Shown piece by piece: positions 8,213 to 15,584 of a stretch of DNA of 19,653 bases. Position 1 is the first letter of the stretch. The number at the start of each line of letters is the position of its first letter. Under the pieces are notes generated by a model. That model was not told the origin of the DNA, did no database searches, and was given only the letters and a program-made list of their open reading frames with translations. Position numbers and translations under genes: made by a program. This stretch comes from Candidatus Eiseniibacteriota bacterium (GTDB lineage Bacteria; JAFGKV01): the NCBI GenBank assembly GCA_025453925.1, contig JALOPK010000053.1, forward strand, positions 1 to 19,653, in the 5' to 3' direction.

Positions 8213-11200
8213 CTACCGGGCATCGCCGCCGATCGCGAAGTACTCTGCTTCGGGGTGGTGGAGTATGAGCCCCGACGCCGAGCACTCGGGCACGAGCTGC
8301 CACGACTCAGTGTGGGAGATACCGATACGCTCGGGTCCCAGGAGGGCGAACAGCTGTTCATGGGAGGCGAGAGAGGGAAACGCCGGCATTCCAGGGGCGT
8401 AGATCTTCCCACCGGTTCCCAACCCCCACTCACGGACGATGTCGGACCGAACCATCTCGGCCAGTGCTTCCGTGAGCGCCATCGTCAAGCCGTGGAGGAG
8501 GAAGTACCTGGAGTAGAGGCCATCGCGTCTGGCCTCTTCCGCGGCGGCCAGCCCGCGACCTCCCATGGTCACCATGAAGAGGGCAAGGGCATCACCCACC
8601 GGGGCGATGTAATCCTGCAGCGAGCGCCCCTCCCCCTTTTCGCGTCCCACCGGGATCACCAGCTCCATCCCGCTCGGGGAGGCACTCACCTCGATGCCAT
8701 CGGTGCCGTGGGGGCGCGCGTCCCAGTATCCCCACACGGCTGCACCCGTCAGACACCACTTCTCGATCTCGGGGACCATCTTGGCAAGGTACTGCAGTCC
8801 CAGATCCTCGTCGCGAAGCCGCCAGAACCGTCGGATAAGGCCGTGCTGATTGAGGAAGGGCCACAGTTCTCCGACGGGGATCAGTGAGCGGGTTCTGGTG
8901 CCCAGGAATGGCGGTCGCGGGGGCGTGACCCGCGACCGCGGCGTTCTCCGGGGCGGGATGTGGGCCGGCGCGCGGCACTCGGGAAGCGCCGGGATGTCTC
9001 CCTGGGCGAGGCGTTGGACGATCTCGAGCCCCTGGAGTGCATCACGGCCGAAGAAGACCAGACCCGGATATCGGGGCGCGAGTTCCCTCGCCGCATAGGC
9101 CTCGGAAAGCGCCGCACCTCCCACGAGGATGGGGGGAAACGGCTGACCCAGCGAGGCAATCTGCTCCATGCCTCTGACCATGACGTCGACGGATTGGACG
9201 AGGAGACCCGACAGTCCGAGCGCCAGGGCCCCGCGTTCCACGGTTTCCCGGAAGGCGGCGGCCATCGGCACACGGGTACCGAGATCCACCACGTTGAAGC
9301 CGTTATTCGCGAGGATGATGCCTACCAGGTTCTTCCCTATGTCGTGCACGTCGCCCTCGACGGTGGCGAGGACGACGGTTCCGCGGTCCGAGCAGGCCGA
9401 CGTGGGAAGGTGGGGCCCGAGCAGTCGTGTGCCCTCACGAATCACCTCGGCGGATCCGAGCACGAAGGGCAGCTGCAACTCCCCTGCCTTGAACAGCTCG
9501 CCGACCCTGGCCATGCCGCGCAGGAGACCCTCCTCCAGCAGGGTGCGGGCGGGGTAGGCGAGGAGCCCTTCCTCGATGATGGTCACCAAGGAGGAGCGAT
9601 CCCCCCTAATGACCGCGGCCTCCAGGGCACCAAGAGGGTCCTTGGGCGTCGCCGGAGGATCGCCGCCGGGCTCCTCGGCCGATGTGAAGCGCTCAAGAAA
9701 CGCAAGGAGCCGGGTGCGCGGCGCTCCGTTGAGCAGCAGTTCTTCAGCCGCGGCTCTCGTCTCATGGGGGAGGAGGTGGAGCGGCTGAATCTGCCCCGCG
9801 TGGACGATGGCGGCGGCCAGACCGCGCTCCGCAGCCAGCTGAAGCATGACCGAGTTGAGCACTCCGCGGACTTTCGCGTCCAAACCATGGGACACATTGG
9901 AGATTCCCGCGATGGTCGGCATCCATGGGAGGACGCTCCGGAGCTCGTCCAGCGCCCCAAGGGTCTCGGCTGCGGCCCTCTCCAGGTCCGGCTGGCCGCT
10001 CCCAATGGGGAGGACCAGCGGATCGAAGAAGATCGCGTCTTCCGGCAGGCTCATCGCTCGCCTCACCTGATCGGCGCGGAGGGCGATTCGCACCTTGTGG
10101 GCACTCGTGTACGCCTGGCCGTCCTCGTCAATGGCCAAAACCACCATGGCACATCCCGTTTCGAGACAGGCGCGGGCGACCTGTCGCACGTCGCCATCTC
10201 CGTTCGCGAAAGAGACCGAGTTCAGGATGCTGCAGCCCGGCATTACCCTGGCCGCAGCGACGAGTGCGCCGGGAGTCGCCGAATCCAGGACCAGCGGCAT
10301 GGTGCACCGCGCACGCAACGCGCCGGCCAGGTCGGTCAGCCGCTGAGTCGGATCCTCGCCTGCCAGGTCGACGCACAGATCCACGGCGTGGGCTCCCTCA
10401 TCGGCCTGGGCCAGGGTAACGGCGGCTGCGGCATCCACATCGCCACTCTCGACGAGTTTCCTGAACCGGCGGGATCCGTTGACATTGCTGCGTTCGCCGA
10501 CGATGAGGACCGAATCCTCCTGGCGGTAGGTGACACGATGATAGAGGCTGCTGAGGGAAGGGAGCCATGTGCCGGCGGGTTGCATCGGGCGGCGGCGACC
10601 AATGCGTGATGCCAGTGCCAGGATGTGGGCGGGCGTCGTGCCGCAGCACCCTCCGGCGATACCCACGGGATATCTGGCAACCAGCGCCTCAATCGAGAGG
10701 GCGAACTCTTCGGGCTGTAGCGGGAACACTACGCGGTCGTCTTCCCTCACCGGGAGACCCGCATTCGGCTTGAGCCACAAGGGTATCTGGGCGAGGGATG
10801 ACATGACGGCGAGAGCCGCCCCCAGTTCCTTTGGACCGAGTCCGCAGTTCAGGCCGATTGCATCCGGCCGGAACGGAAGGACCGAGGCCATGGCTGCCTC
10901 GACCGTCGTGCCCAGAAGCATGGTGCCGGCCTCGGTCAGGGTCAGGGAGACCACCACGAACGATCCCTCGCCAGGCGATGGACAGCCCTCCCGGACGGCC
11001 GAGAGTGCCGCCTTGGCCTGCAGTGGATCCTGACAGGTCTCTACCACGAACCCATCTACCCCGCCCGCCAGGAGGCTCCGCACCTGCACAAGGTACGCTG
11101 CTCTGAGTTCGTCGAAGGTTGACTGCCCCAGGCTGGGCAGCAGCGAGCCCGGCCCGAGAGACCCGAGCACCCAGCCCTTCCTGTGTCGTCTCATCGCGGC

Positions 11201-11506
11201 CTTCGCCAAGACCGCGGCTTCGCGGTTGAGCTTCCCCGAAACCTCAGCCAGATCGTACGCCGCGAGGCTGAGGGGGTTTGCGCCGAACGTATTCGTCAGG
11301 ATGATGTCGGCGCCGGCGTCGAGGTAATTGTCGTGCAGACGATTGACCACGTGCGGGCGCGACAGCGTGAGCCCATCAGGGCAGCCCTCGGGGAAATGCG
11401 TCTCCCCCGTCTGTTCCCGCAAGAGATTCTCCAGTGCGACCCCCGTTGAGCCATCAGACAGGAGGACTCGCTCACGGAGCGCGGCGCGCAGGTCGGACTC
11501 AGGCAC
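8213..11506 (-). CDS. metH: Cobalamin-dependent methionine synthase, all five domains
   Basis: 1,097 residues from GTG 11506, preferred because GAGG lies 6 nt upstream; the frame also opens at TTG 11551, which has no Shine-Dalgarno. Domains (my numbering): homocysteine-binding barrel ~10-305, with zinc ligands Cys221 (LNCGLG) and Cys287-Cys288 (GGCCGT); pterin barrel ~330-600 (VGERSNVNGSRRFR, ILNSVSF, GISNVSHGL); B12 cap ~625-700 (VGELFKAGELQLPFVLGSA); B12 Rossmann domain ~705-845 (EGDVHDIGKN with cobalt-ligand His721, LSGLLVQS, LVGGAALS); reactivation domain ~870-1097. It methylates homocysteine with methyltetrahydrofolate through methylcobalamin. It is compact (E. coli 1,227). The AdoMet-binding RxxxGY block of the last domain reads IYAPGM, lacking both the Arg and the Tyr. 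A Pro/Arg-rich linker (PRRTPRSRVTPPRPP) joins B12 and reactivation domains. Confidence 0.95.
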   Translation of the reverse strand: MPESDLRAALRERVLLSDGSTGVALENLLREQTGETHFPEGCPDGLTLSRPHVVNRLHDNYLDAGADIILTNTFGANPLSLAAYDLAEVSGKLNREAAVLAKAAMRRHRKGWVLGSLGPGSLLPSLGQSTFDELRAAYLVQVRSLLAGGVDGFVVETCQDPLQAKAALSAVREGCPSPGEGSFVVVSLTLTEAGTMLLGTTVEAAMASVLPFRPDAIGLNCGLGPKELGAALAVMSSLAQIPLWLKPNAGLPVREDDRVVFPLQPEEFALSIEALVARYPVGIAGGCCGTTPAHILALASRIGRRRPMQPAGTWLPSLSSLYHRVTYRQEDSVLIVGERSNVNGSRRFRKLVESGDVDAAAAVTLAQADEGAHAVDLCVDLAGEDPTQRLTDLAGALRARCTMPLVLDSATPGALVAAARVMPGCSILNSVSFANGDGDVRQVARACLETGCAMVVLAIDEDGQAYTSAHKVRIALRADQVRRAMSLPEDAIFFDPLVLPIGSGQPDLERAAAETLGALDELRSVLPWMPTIAGISNVSHGLDAKVRGVLNSVMLQLAAERGLAAAIVHAGQIQPLHLLPHETRAAAEELLLNGAPRTRLLAFLERFTSAEEPGGDPPATPKDPLGALEAAVIRGDRSSLVTIIEEGLLAYPARTLLEEGLLRGMARVGELFKAGELQLPFVLGSAEVIREGTRLLGPHLPTSACSDRGTVVLATVEGDVHDIGKNLVGIILANNGFNVVDLGTRVPMAAAFRETVERGALALGLSGLLVQSVDVMVRGMEQIASLGQPFPPILVGGAALSEAYAARELAPRYPGLVFFGRDALQGLEIVQRLAQGDIPALPECRAPAHIPPRRTPRSRVTPPRPPFLGTRTRSLIPVGELWPFLNQHGLIRRFWRLRDEDLGLQYLAKMVPEIEKWCLTGAAVWGYWDARPHGTDGIEVSASPSGMELVIPVGREKGEGRSLQDYIAPVGDALALFMVTMGGRGLAAAEEARRDGLYSRYFLLHGLTMALTEALAEMVRSDIVREWGLGTGGKIYAPGMPAFPSLASHEQLFALLGPERIGISHTESWQLVPECSASGLILHHPEAEYFAIGGDAR

Positions 11507-11623
11507 AGGGCACCTCGGCAGGATGGGGGGAACGAACACCCTTCGAATCAACAGACTTGCGAGACCGGTGAAAAGGGTGAGCAGGGCGCAATGCCCTCAA
11601 CGGCGTTCACAGTCTGACAACGA

Positions 11624-12960: not shown

Positions 12961-13953
12961 ATGGACGTTGATATTCGAAAGACCGGCGATTTGGTCAAGG
13001 AGCGCATCGAACTCCTCAGCAGGATTCGAGCGAACGTCTCTTCGGTGATCGTTGGGCAGGCGAAGCTTATCGACGGGCTCCTCATCGGGCTCCTCACCCG
13101 GGGGCATCTGCTGCTGGAGGGTGTCCCCGGCCTGGCGAAGACCCTCACGGTCAGCACGCTGGCCAGCAGTATTGATGTCAAGTTCCAACGCATCCAGTTC
13201 ACGCCGGACATGCTGCCGGCCGACATCGTCGGCACCACGGTTTTCGATCCCAAGGAAGGCGTCTTCTACCCTCGCAAGGGGCCCATCTTCGCCAACCTGA
13301 TTCTCGCCGATGAGATCAACCGAGCACCGGCCAAGGTGCACAGCGCCTTGCTGGAGGCGATGCAGGAACGCGCGGTGACCATCCAGGATCAGACGTTTCT
13401 GCTCGAAGAGCCGTTCCTGGTACTGGCCACACAGAACCCCATCGAACAGGAGGGAACCTACCCACTTCCCGAGGCGCAGGTCGACCGGTTCATGCTGAAG
13501 CTGGGCGTGGGCTACCCCGGGAAGGACGAGGAGAAGGAGATCCTGAAGCGCATGGGCATGGTGAAGCCCGATGTCTCGGTGCGACCGGTGGCCACCAAGG
13601 ATGAGATCCTCGAAGCGCGGGACGTGCTGGACATGGTCTACGTGGACGAAAAGGTCATGGGCTATGTGGTCGACGTGGTGTCGGCCACCCGCGATCCCGC
13701 GAAGTACGGTCTCAAGGACATGGCGGGGCTGATCCGGTATGGCGCCTCTCCCCGGGCGGGGATCCACCTCCTGCTTGCCGCGAAGGGCCACGCCGTGCTG
13801 GCCGGCCGCGGCTACGTCACGCCCGCCGACGTCAAGGCCATGGCCATGGACGCCTTGCGCCACCGCGTTATCCCGACCTATGAAGCCGAAGCCGAGGAAC
13901 TGACCTCCGAGCACCTCGTCCAGAAGGTCTTGGACAATGTAGCGGTGCCCTAG
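12961..13953 (+). CDS. MoxR-type AAA+ ATPase
   Basis: 330 residues from ATG 12961, with GGGAGG about 6 nt upstream. Features: Walker A EGVPGLAKT (53-61), Walker B LILADEINRAPAK (113-125, D117 E118), sensor 1 LATQNPIEQEGTYPLPEAQVDRF (N159, Arg176), and the C-terminal lid (ATRDPAKYGLKDMAGLIRYGASPRAGIHL). These are the hallmarks of the MoxR (AAA_3) family, cytosolic ring chaperone-type ATPases that act with von Willebrand A domain proteins on metal loading, envelope or stress functions. The genes after it (DUF58, BatD-like, two vWA membrane proteins, TPR protein) form the usual partner set. Unlike the tight spacing further down, 731 bp separate it from DUF58, explained by an inserted cassette. 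The substrate of the system cannot be inferred. Confidence 0.95.
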   Translation: MDVDIRKTGDLVKERIELLSRIRANVSSVIVGQAKLIDGLLIGLLTRGHLLLEGVPGLAKTLTVSTLASSIDVKFQRIQFTPDMLPADIVGTTVFDPKEGVFYPRKGPIFANLILADEINRAPAKVHSALLEAMQERAVTIQDQTFLLEEPFLVLATQNPIEQEGTYPLPEAQVDRFMLKLGVGYPGKDEEKEILKRMGMVKPDVSVRPVATKDEILEARDVLDMVYVDEKVMGYVVDVVSATRDPAKYGLKDMAGLIRYGASPRAGIHLLLAAKGHAVLAGRGYVTPADVKAMAMDALRHRVIPTYEAEAEELTSEHLVQKVLDNVAVP

Positions 13954-13962
13954 TGGTACGGC

Positions 13963-13997
13963 GTTCACAGTGAACGGTTCACGGTTCACAGTGGAAC
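13963..13997. repeat. Left heptamer array / terminal inverted repeat
   Basis: Five 7-bp units in register, starting 9 nt after the moxR stop: GTTCACA, GTGAACG, GTTCACG, GTTCACA and a degenerate GTGGAAC. Units occur in both orientations, so the first two form a perfect GTTCAC-A-GTGAAC palindrome. In reverse complement, 13992-13963 matches the right terminal array at 27 of 30 positions. Confidence 0.85.
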
Positions 13998-14114
13998 GAG
14001 GCAGACCACGGGTGGAATGCAGAATCGAAGCGATCAGTGGTGGTGGAATCCGCCGAGCGCTCATCGCAGCCCGCGCAGAACTCTACCGCCGTTTTCTCTG
14101 AAGCGGGAGTGGGC

Positions 14115-14531
14115 ATGCAGGATTTTCGGAGACTTCGAGTTTGGCAGCGAAGTCATGAGTTGGCGGTTGACATCTATCGATCAAGCTCCTCGTTCCCCAA
14201 ACATGAGGCGTTCGGGCTGACCTCTCAGATCAGGAGAGCCGGCGCCTCGATACCGACCAATATCGCCGAGGGAGCGGGACGTTCGGGGAGCGCGGAGTTC
14301 ATGCGGTTCCTGCACATCGCGATGGGCTCGGCATGCGAGCTCGAGTATCAACTCCTGCTGGCGAAGGACCTGGGCTACATCGAGAGTGCCGATCACCAGC
14401 GGCTGGAGGCTCACGCGATTGATGTCAAGCAGATGCTGTCAGCCCTTCAGAAGAAAGTCACGGACGCCGGCTCTCACCGCCAACACGCCGCCGGAGTTCG
14501 CGAGGACTCCTTCCAGTGGGATGTTGAGTGA
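14115..14531 (+). CDS. Four-helix-bundle protein, S23/23S-rRNA-IVS (bAvd-like) family
   Basis: 138 residues from ATG 14115, with GGGAG 5 nt upstream; the frame is open further upstream (ATG 14037) but that part does not fit the family. The N-terminus MQDFRRLRVWQRSHELAVDIY, then FPKHEAFGLTSQIRRAGASIPTNIAEG, EFMRFLHIAMGSACELEYQLLLAKDLGYI and a last helix ending VKQMLSALQKKV match the four-helix-bundle family (TIGR02436/PF05635). Its relatives are encoded in intervening sequences of 23S rRNA genes or serve as Avd in diversity-generating retroelements; the cellular role of stand-alone members is unclear. Residues ~121-138 are an unconserved tail. The gene is the only cargo of the TIR-bounded cassette and is co-directional with the interrupted operon. 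No reverse transcriptase or template repeat is present, so a DGR is not supported. Confidence 0.9.
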   Translation: MQDFRRLRVWQRSHELAVDIYRSSSSFPKHEAFGLTSQIRRAGASIPTNIAEGAGRSGSAEFMRFLHIAMGSACELEYQLLLAKDLGYIESADHQRLEAHAIDVKQMLSALQKKVTDAGSHRQHAAGVREDSFQWDVE

Positions 14532-14596
14532 CCGCCGGGCTGGCCACATGCGGAACTCAGGAATCGGATCAACTTGCACAGCAGAAGCCGGTTGCA

Positions 14597-14610
14597 GACC
14601 CTCGGGGGTC
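14597..14610. repeat. Short perfect hairpin after the four-helix-bundle gene
   Basis: GACCC (14597-14601) and GGGTC (14606-14610) form a 5-bp stem capped by TCGG, 66 nt past the four-helix-bundle stop and inside the cassette. It is followed by TCATTC rather than a T-run. It could be a weak terminator that still allows read-through to the downstream operon. Confidence 0.3.
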
Positions 14611-14632
14611 TCATTCGACGCGCTGATGGGGT

Positions 14633-14660
14633 TTGAACCGTGAACGGTGAACGGTGAACG
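14633..14660 (+). repeat. Inner right heptamer array
   Basis: A TTGAACC unit (14633-14639) followed by three identical GTGAACG units (14640-14660), all in one orientation. It is preceded by GGTTTGAAC starting at 14630, the same 9-mer that begins the outer right array 45 nt later (14675), so the two right arrays look like degenerate direct copies separated by a 14-15 nt unrelated spacer. Confidence 0.85.
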
Positions 14661-14677
14661 AATCGTCCGCATGAGGT

Positions 14678-14712
14678 TTGAACTGTGAACCGTGAACCGT
14701 CAACCGTGAACT
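14678..14712 (+). repeat. Outer right heptamer array / terminal inverted repeat
   Basis: Five units in register: TTGAACT, GTGAACC, GTGAACC, GTCAACC, GTGAACT. Positions 14682-14711 are the inverted match (27/30) of the left array. The GTG of the second unit (14685) is the best start codon of the DUF58 gene, so this repeat is translated into the first nine residues of that protein. Confidence 0.85.
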
Positions 14713-15584
14713 TGCCCTCCGATCTTCTCAAACGCGTCAGGCAGATACAGATACGGGCGCGCAAGCCGGTGGCCGAACTGCTGGCGGGCGAGTTTCGCTC
14801 CGTGTTCCGCGGCACGGGGGTGGAATTCGACGAGCTGCGCGAGTATGTCCCGGGCGACGACATCCGTGCCATCGATTGGAACGTCACCGCACGCATGGGG
14901 CGGCCCTTCGTCAAGAAGTACATGGAGGAGCGGGAGCTCACCATCATGCTGCTTGTCGACCTCTCCGGGTCCATGAGTTTCGGCACCGGCCACTCCCTCA
15001 AGCGCGAGCGGGCGGCCGAACTGGCGGCACTACTCGCCTTCAGCGCAGCGCAGAACCGTGACAAAGTGGGACTCATCTCGTTTACCGATAAGGTGGAGCA
15101 GTTCATTCCTCCCAAGAAGGGAACTCGCCACGTGTTGCGGCTGATCCGCGAACTCCTGTACTTCACTCCGCTGGGGTCCGGGACGGATATCGCCGGTGCG
15201 TTGCACTACCTGAACCTTGTTCAGCACCGCAAGGCGGTGGTGTTCGTGATCTCGGATTTCCTCGGGGAAGGTTTTCGGCACGACCTGCGGCTCTCTGCTC
15301 GTCGTCACGATCTCATCACCGTGCTGCTTCGGGACGAGAAGGAAGCCGTCCTGCCCTCGCTGGGCGTGGCAGTGTTCACCGACCCGGAGACGGGCACTCA
15401 GGTGGTGATAGATACGGCTGTGCGGGCGACGCGTGAGCAGCTGGCCGCCCGGGCAACCGAGAGCGCGTCGTGGCTCGCTCGCGAGACCGCGGCGTCTGGG
15501 GCCGATCTGCTGGAGATCGGCAGCTCAGAGGACTACGTGACCAAGCTGCATCGGTTCTTCCGACGCAGGGAGCGCGCTCGCTGA
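14685..15584 (+). CDS. DUF58 protein with degenerate vWA fold
   Basis: 299 residues from GTG 14685; GAGG (14673-14676) is 8 nt upstream. A later GTG at 14706 has no Shine-Dalgarno but would give the more usual N-terminus (LPSDLLKRVRQ). The first residues MNREPSTVN are encoded by the heptamer repeat. The conserved DUF58 core follows: GEFRSVFRGTGVEFDELREY, PGDDIRAIDWNVTAR (57-70), then a vWA domain with MIDAS-like DLSGSMS (D92, S94, S96), GSGTDI (T167) and ISDF (D191). No membrane segment is visible, so it should be cytosolic, as for many DUF58 proteins that partner MoxR. The stop overlaps the next ATG (TGATG, 15582-15586), so translation is probably coupled. If the cassette insertion displaced the native leader, expression of this gene may depend on the repeat-borne start. 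Confidence 0.92.
   Translation: MNREPSTVNLPSDLLKRVRQIQIRARKPVAELLAGEFRSVFRGTGVEFDELREYVPGDDIRAIDWNVTARMGRPFVKKYMEERELTIMLLVDLSGSMSFGTGHSLKRERAAELAALLAFSAAQNRDKVGLISFTDKVEQFIPPKKGTRHVLRLIRELLYFTPLGSGTDIAGALHYLNLVQHRKAVVFVISDFLGEGFRHDLRLSARRHDLITVLLRDEKEAVLPSLGVAVFTDPETGTQVVIDTAVRATREQLAARATESASWLARETAASGADLLEIGSSEDYVTKLHRFFRRRERAR

Follow-up and report, generated by a model that had tools for sequence, protein, structure and literature searches.

A stand-alone S23 gene between inverted heptamer arrays in a moxR operon: a probable mobile cassette resembling the intervening sequence of 23S rRNA

An S23 gene that lies between moxR and a DUF58 gene is enclosed there by inverted arrays of heptamers. 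It was found in 19,653 nucleotides of DNA from a Candidatus Eiseniibacteriota bacterium (the whole stretch analysed, referred to below as the window). The feature is probably a mobile cassette akin to the intervening sequence (IVS) of 23S rRNA, and consists of one S23 gene between inverted arrays of ~4-5 short tandem repeats. Genes of this family appear to lie at the heart of a type of mobile element that has so far gone unnoticed, and the cassette joins three questions: the role of the widespread S23 genes, the source of scattered heptanucleotide repeats, and the origin and movement of the 23S rRNA IVS. All three are directly testable, gene and arrays together measuring ~420-750 bp and filled plasmids having close empty counterparts.

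The cassette and its junction in related genomes

Table 1. Parts of the cassette and of its target operon in the window
Feature	Positions	Strand	Particulars
Whole cassette	13963..14711	+	749 bp from the left to the outer right array, at the moxR-DUF58 junction
Left heptamer array (left inverted arm)	13963..13992	+	GTTCACA GTGAACG GTTCACG GTTCACA
S23 (four-helix-bundle) gene	14115..14531	+	ATG to TGA; 138 aa, MQDFRRLRVW...; PF05635 and TIGR02436 matches
Inner right heptamer array	14634..14660	+	TGAACGG x3.9 (Tandem Repeats Finder)
Outer right heptamer array	14679..14711	+	TGAACCG x4.7; right inverted arm at 14682-14711
moxR-type AAA ATPase gene (upstream, target operon)	12961..13953	+	PF07726, E=6.7e-64
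DUF58 gene (downstream, target operon)	14685..15584	+	PF01882, E=5e-79; comparison with L034 and L108

An earlier note on this DNA had described an S23-type gene flanked by inverted ends made of heptamers, placed at a gene junction of the moxR operon and accompanied by no transposase, and all of this is borne out. The two arms, 30 nt each, pair at 27 of 30 positions (90% complementary) across 689 nt. Two additions come from Tandem Repeats Finder, which reports three period-7 arrays, one on the left (13963-13989) and two on the right: the third array itself and the irregularity of the left one, the poorest of the three (75% matches) and with one of its units inverted. In the predicted fold of the cassette RNA the outermost stem is formed by the two arms; taken as a whole, the folding of this RNA is not unusual (z -1.5).

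The start of the S23 gene was placed by its ATG and by alignment with a genome of the same genus (G001, below). Its product belongs to the family by both profiles, scoring 135 bits against PF05635 (E=1.4e-39; curated cut-off 33.8) and 131 bits against TIGR02436 (E=1.5e-38; curated cut-off 24). Pfam and NCBIfam scans of the cassette returned these two alone, with no recognisable transposase and no Y1 (HUH) tyrosine transposase domain, and no catalytic domain is recognisable in the S23 protein. An origin from phage was rejected, tblastn against a phage collection having given no match. The closest solved structure is that of the homologue XCC0516 (2GSC), which is a homopentamer forming a ring (PMC4990558).

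At the junction, the DUF58 start lies inside the right array or just past its end; the candidate starts, GTG 14685 and GTG 14706, both fall within the array. The start codon of DUF58 thus appears to be array-derived (the GTG of GTGAAC, 14685-14711); the same-genus and sister-genus genomes have an ATG at that place, which the window lacks. Elsewhere in the window, the minus strand of 8213-11551 holds a 1112-aa ORF whose product resembles a cobalamin-dependent methionine synthase.

PF05635 finds three matches in the source genome (3.9 Mb in 502 contigs, 82% complete). One of the other two is a fragment; the second full S23 gene is likewise enclosed by inverted heptamer arrays, as the earlier note had asked of other S23 genes in this genome, and they are built of a different word, GCGGAAC instead of GTGAACS. 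Array counts in this genome rest on pattern searches, in which GTGAACSGTGAACSGTGAAC with up to 3 mismatches gives 36 matches, several inside the window cassette and the others dispersed over other contigs, against 0 for a reversed control, a difference that excludes a chance origin of the arrays. GTGAACS arrays without an S23 gene occur on many other contigs, and there is also a gene-less inverted pair (C256:4357-4513) with ~105 bp between its arrays.

The comparison of the moxR-DUF58 junction in relatives that the note had proposed finds an empty site in the sister genus, represented by one genome (G002), where the moxR stop and the DUF58 ATG are separated by 20 bp; moxR directly beside DUF58 is the usual arrangement. 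The two checks put forward in the note thus both favour its reading. G001, of the same genus as the source, also has an S23 gene at this junction, but with different array words, GCTRTCR on the left and GAGCCGA on the right. The two S23 proteins are identical at 71 of 130 positions (55%), the MoxR proteins at 279 of 291 (96%) and the DUF58 proteins at 88%; in the S23 tree the two fall within one seven-member clade, in which they are not sisters. GCTRTCR arrays are very abundant in G001, with 321 pattern matches, far above either of the other two genomes, a number to be taken as a guide only, the control pattern being similar in sequence.

Packaging of S23 genes across Bacteria

Terminal inverted arrays are a general property of these loci, but the earlier reading of a unit bounded by one fixed family of terminal inverted repeats does not stand: the repeat word is specific to each locus, although common to the two ends of any one locus, and units of 6, 8 or 9 nt are possible. 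Searching for further copies of the same 30-nt ends was therefore rejected as a test of mobility, as it would miss almost all relatives; with words that differ by locus, periodicity and the matching of left to right flanks are what should be scored. Packaging was measured as the best ungapped match between the left flank and the inverted right flank, with a threshold of 14. In a domain-wide PF05635 sample, 73% of 63 genes reach that value, as against 1% for left flanks paired with the right flanks of other loci and 0% for 30 ParE genes taken from these genomes. A named set of 73 loci, picked for their likeness to the window protein and drawn from Chloroflexi, Bacteroidota, Planctomycetes, Acidobacteria and other groups, gives 48%, against 0.7% for mismatched pairs and 0.8% for 263 positions shifted within these loci. 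Period 7 on either flank is found for 42 of the 63 and 39 of the 73 genes, compared with 2 of 30 and 9 of 129 in the controls. The negative ParE control also disposes of the idea that arrays are a general trait of small isolated genes. The surveyed loci are partly non-independent, the genomes are partly incomplete and detection of repeats is bound to its threshold: in many loci below it visual inspection picks out degenerate heptamers on each side, and at some S23 genes (L053, L061, L063) arrays are not detectable.

Of 262 arrays found at 164 genes, 208 have a unit of 7 nt, 34 of 8 nt, 13 of 9 nt and seven of 6 nt. The copy number of heptamer arrays (median 4.9) peaks at 4-5, to which the detection threshold may contribute. 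Arrays lie close to the S23 domain, at a median distance of 37 bp on its upstream side and 49 bp on its downstream side. When units are aligned by rotation a common fuzzy core, YRG-N-T-N-T, emerges. The named set shows it clearly (with information of 3.48 and 2.90 against control maxima of 2.06 and 1.97), the domain-wide set marginally (2.17 against 2.09, and 2.13 against 1.95). Arrays of the same words lacking an S23 gene are scattered in tens to hundreds of copies. Where cassettes lie between codirectional genes they are strongly biased to the sense direction (86 sense, 8 antisense; P=1e-17).

One genome and one locus have oddities of their own. The genome G010 has 19 partial PF05635 matches, in opposite-strand pairs that overlap or lie a few hundred bp apart, some near heptamer-like arrays; these pairs are perhaps palindromic degenerate copies. 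L054 has two tandem S23 genes and 34-nt arrays, identical or nearly so, at 144, 1420 and 2595.

Filled and empty sites

On cyanobacterial plasmids, seven sites of insertion can be compared with alleles that are empty, the flanks being roughly 85-98% identical. Trichormus plasmid C is filled and several plasmids of ~97% identity are empty; Picosynechococcus 7003 is filled between cmr2 and cmr3 and 7002 is empty; Nostoc edaphicum is filled between nrdB and nrdA and Calothrix is empty; the further sites are in Calothrix, Nostoc C052, Nostoc 53789 and Aulosira. The empty alleles lack both arrays as well as the S23 gene. Moreover, Trichormus and Aulosira have one and the same cassette of 416 bp (82% identical, ungapped, from array to array) at two unrelated sites. 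These alleles, filled and cleanly empty, together with the shared cassette, show by comparison that the S23 cassette is a mobile unit, as the earlier note had proposed.

A target duplication is clear only at the Trichormus site (L144), where it measures 5 bp (GTAAT); the other plasmid sites have small target deletions or no duplication. Thus, of what would be expected of a classical transposon with terminal inverted repeats, the repeats are present, but neither a recognisable transposase nor a target duplication of constant length is, a duplication having been found at one site in seven, and a transposon of that type was rejected. In relatives the Trichormus site holds a gene-less inverted pair (Brasilonema) or a decayed copy (Nostoc C052). 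The gene-less pair of L238 has the 20-bp AACCCGCCCACGGCGCTGCC between its arrays (1360-1440); the reverse complement of this sequence adjoins another array near 2290, and it is perhaps a second small repeat nested in the arrays. Two of the plasmid cassettes (L146, L150) lie in CRISPR loci, at cas6/cas4 and cmr2/cmr3.

The junctions that Flavobacterial cassettes occupy, going by their translated ends, are presumably groES-groEL, hemF-hemB, fadB-fadA, and leu and arg genes. In the S23 tree the cassettes of one junction tend to group (three at groESL, two at hemFB, two at leu), a pattern that, with support weak for most groups, suggests long vertical persistence in Flavobacteriia and not frequent jumping. 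The cassettes so grouped carry differing repeat words, and it seems, therefore, that a cassette can persist in place for long while both of its arrays change together. In the Nostoc trnL intron, one heptamer class has been described as repeatedly replaced wholesale by another (PMC4476775).

Mechanism, alternatives and known relatives

The cassette would have entered the moxR-DUF58 junction, in the sense direction, after the source genus split from its sister genus. S23, if it forms a homopentameric ring as its solved homologue does, may recognise the arrays as single-stranded RNA or DNA, at about one repeat per subunit, and it may drive insertion with enzymes borrowed from the host. In transcripts the arrays could form a stem cleavable by RNase III, as in the 23S rRNA IVS, so that damage to the host operon would be limited, and S23 might spread gene-less arrays in trans, as has been proposed for RAYT proteins and REPINs. 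Most likely, in our view, S23 is the protein by which an IVS-like mobile element recognises its arrays, working together with host enzymes, and the arrays serve also as an RNase III-type stem in transcripts. We infer the recognition from a gene that stays constant while its arrays change, from the pentamer and from the 4-5 units. Repeat-guided dispersal, the mechanism suggested in the earlier note, is at this stage a hypothesis. A wider proposal, which we put forward tentatively and rate at somewhat under an even chance, is that S23/TIGR02436 genes are kingdom-wide transposable elements without a known transposase, whose pentameric ring recognises degenerate heptamers and whose ends switch words in concert and in place, the 23S rRNA IVSs and many dispersed heptanucleotide repeats being members or remnants.

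It is unlikely, we think, that the arrays serve expression only, whether S23 binds mRNA repeats ahead of its own start in a TRAP-like autoregulation or the stem steers RNase III processing, with mobility incidental. The nearness of the arrays to the gene, the correspondence between ~4-5 units and a pentameric ring, the common YRG core, the strong sense bias in operons and the stem predicted for the window RNA would all suit such a role, but autoregulation leaves unexplained the downstream inverted copy, the joint insertion of both arrays with the gene, and the gene-less inverted pairs. The numerous scattered arrays that lack the gene are what one would expect if heptamer arrays were independent dispersed repeats and S23 a passenger brought in by homologous recombination between arrays that happened to flank it. 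We hold this to be quite improbable: other genes are not so packaged (0 of 30 ParE genes; of 263 shifted positions, 0.8%), S23 loci of different phyla are packaged alike with repeat words that are unrelated, and the empty sites, having no array at all, offered no prior homology at the target.

A retroelement route, in which S23 with a reverse transcriptase would copy the cassette RNA into its target, draws on the sense bias and on kinship: Avd of the diversity-generating retroelements has a four-helix-bundle fold related to S23. Avd, however, works with a reverse transcriptase and a template repeat, and the window cassette has neither. PF00078 was not found in the source genome (82% complete) or in ten others (G003, G010, G018, G020, G042, G056, G061, G063, G066, G096), of which G061 is a single contig rated 100% complete; its absence from most S23-rich genomes argues that reverse transcriptase is not needed, and we regard this route as very unlikely and have rejected it. 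Finally, the moxR-DUF58 insert might be old and lost in the sister genus, its arrays being functionless products of slippage. The single sister-genus genome compared and the long persistence of Flavobacteriia inserts leave some room for great age, but adjacent moxR and DUF58 genes are the common arrangement, and slippage makes neither two inverted arrays of the same word nor one array-to-array unit at two sites; we give this explanation hardly any credence.

The nearest known relative of the mobile cassette is the S23-encoding IVS of 23S rRNA, found with its ORF in Leptospira and Coxiella (PMC4990558). The Coxiella IVS has 3-4 tandem heptamers (GACAGAT), variable in number between strains, directly upstream of the S23p start; it is excised by RNase III, it has been called selfish or mobile, and horizontal transfer has been proposed for it (PMC4990558). 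Both units place an ORF of the same family between stem-forming inverted repeats; the IVS lies inside a 23S rRNA helix, whereas the window unit lies between moxR and DUF58 in a protein-coding operon. The IVS description contains no account of locus-specific inverted arrays in general, of empty plasmid sites or of kingdom-wide spread. The earlier note knew of no formal description of such a unit: the IVS layout and the Coxiella heptamers were in fact already reported (PMC4990558), but a link between heptamer arrays and stand-alone S23 genes was not found described in the literature covered, which was available in part and excluded most subscription papers and all preprints.

REPINs and RAYTs offer another likeness: the gene stands between repeats that recur elsewhere in the genome, inverted pairs occur without it, and mobility has been proposed (PMC3116915). 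RAYT, however, is a Y1 (HUH) transposase and REPs are palindromes of fixed sequence (PMC3116915), whereas S23 matches PF05635 only and its arrays are degenerate, short and tandem, and change between loci. Dispersed heptanucleotide repeats, for their part, have been described as 186 GGGAATC arrays in Xanthomonas, mostly of four units and 70 of them in inverted pairs (PMC4692102), as four- and five-unit GGGACCG and MTYCTGA elements in Geobacter (PMC2700814), as TAACTGA in Beggiatoaceae (PMC4679880) and as repeats of the Nostoc trnL intron (PMC4476775). The passages covered take them for regulatory sites, G-quadruplexes or intron stems, or give their origin as unknown, and make no link to an S23 gene. 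They resemble the S23 arrays in their 7-nt unit, often in 4-5 copies, in their inverted pairs and in their intergenic position, and the reverse strands of TAACTGA and MTYCTGA fit the YRG-N-T-N-T core. XCC0516, the solved homologue, comes from Xanthomonas, the genus of the GGGAATC arrays.
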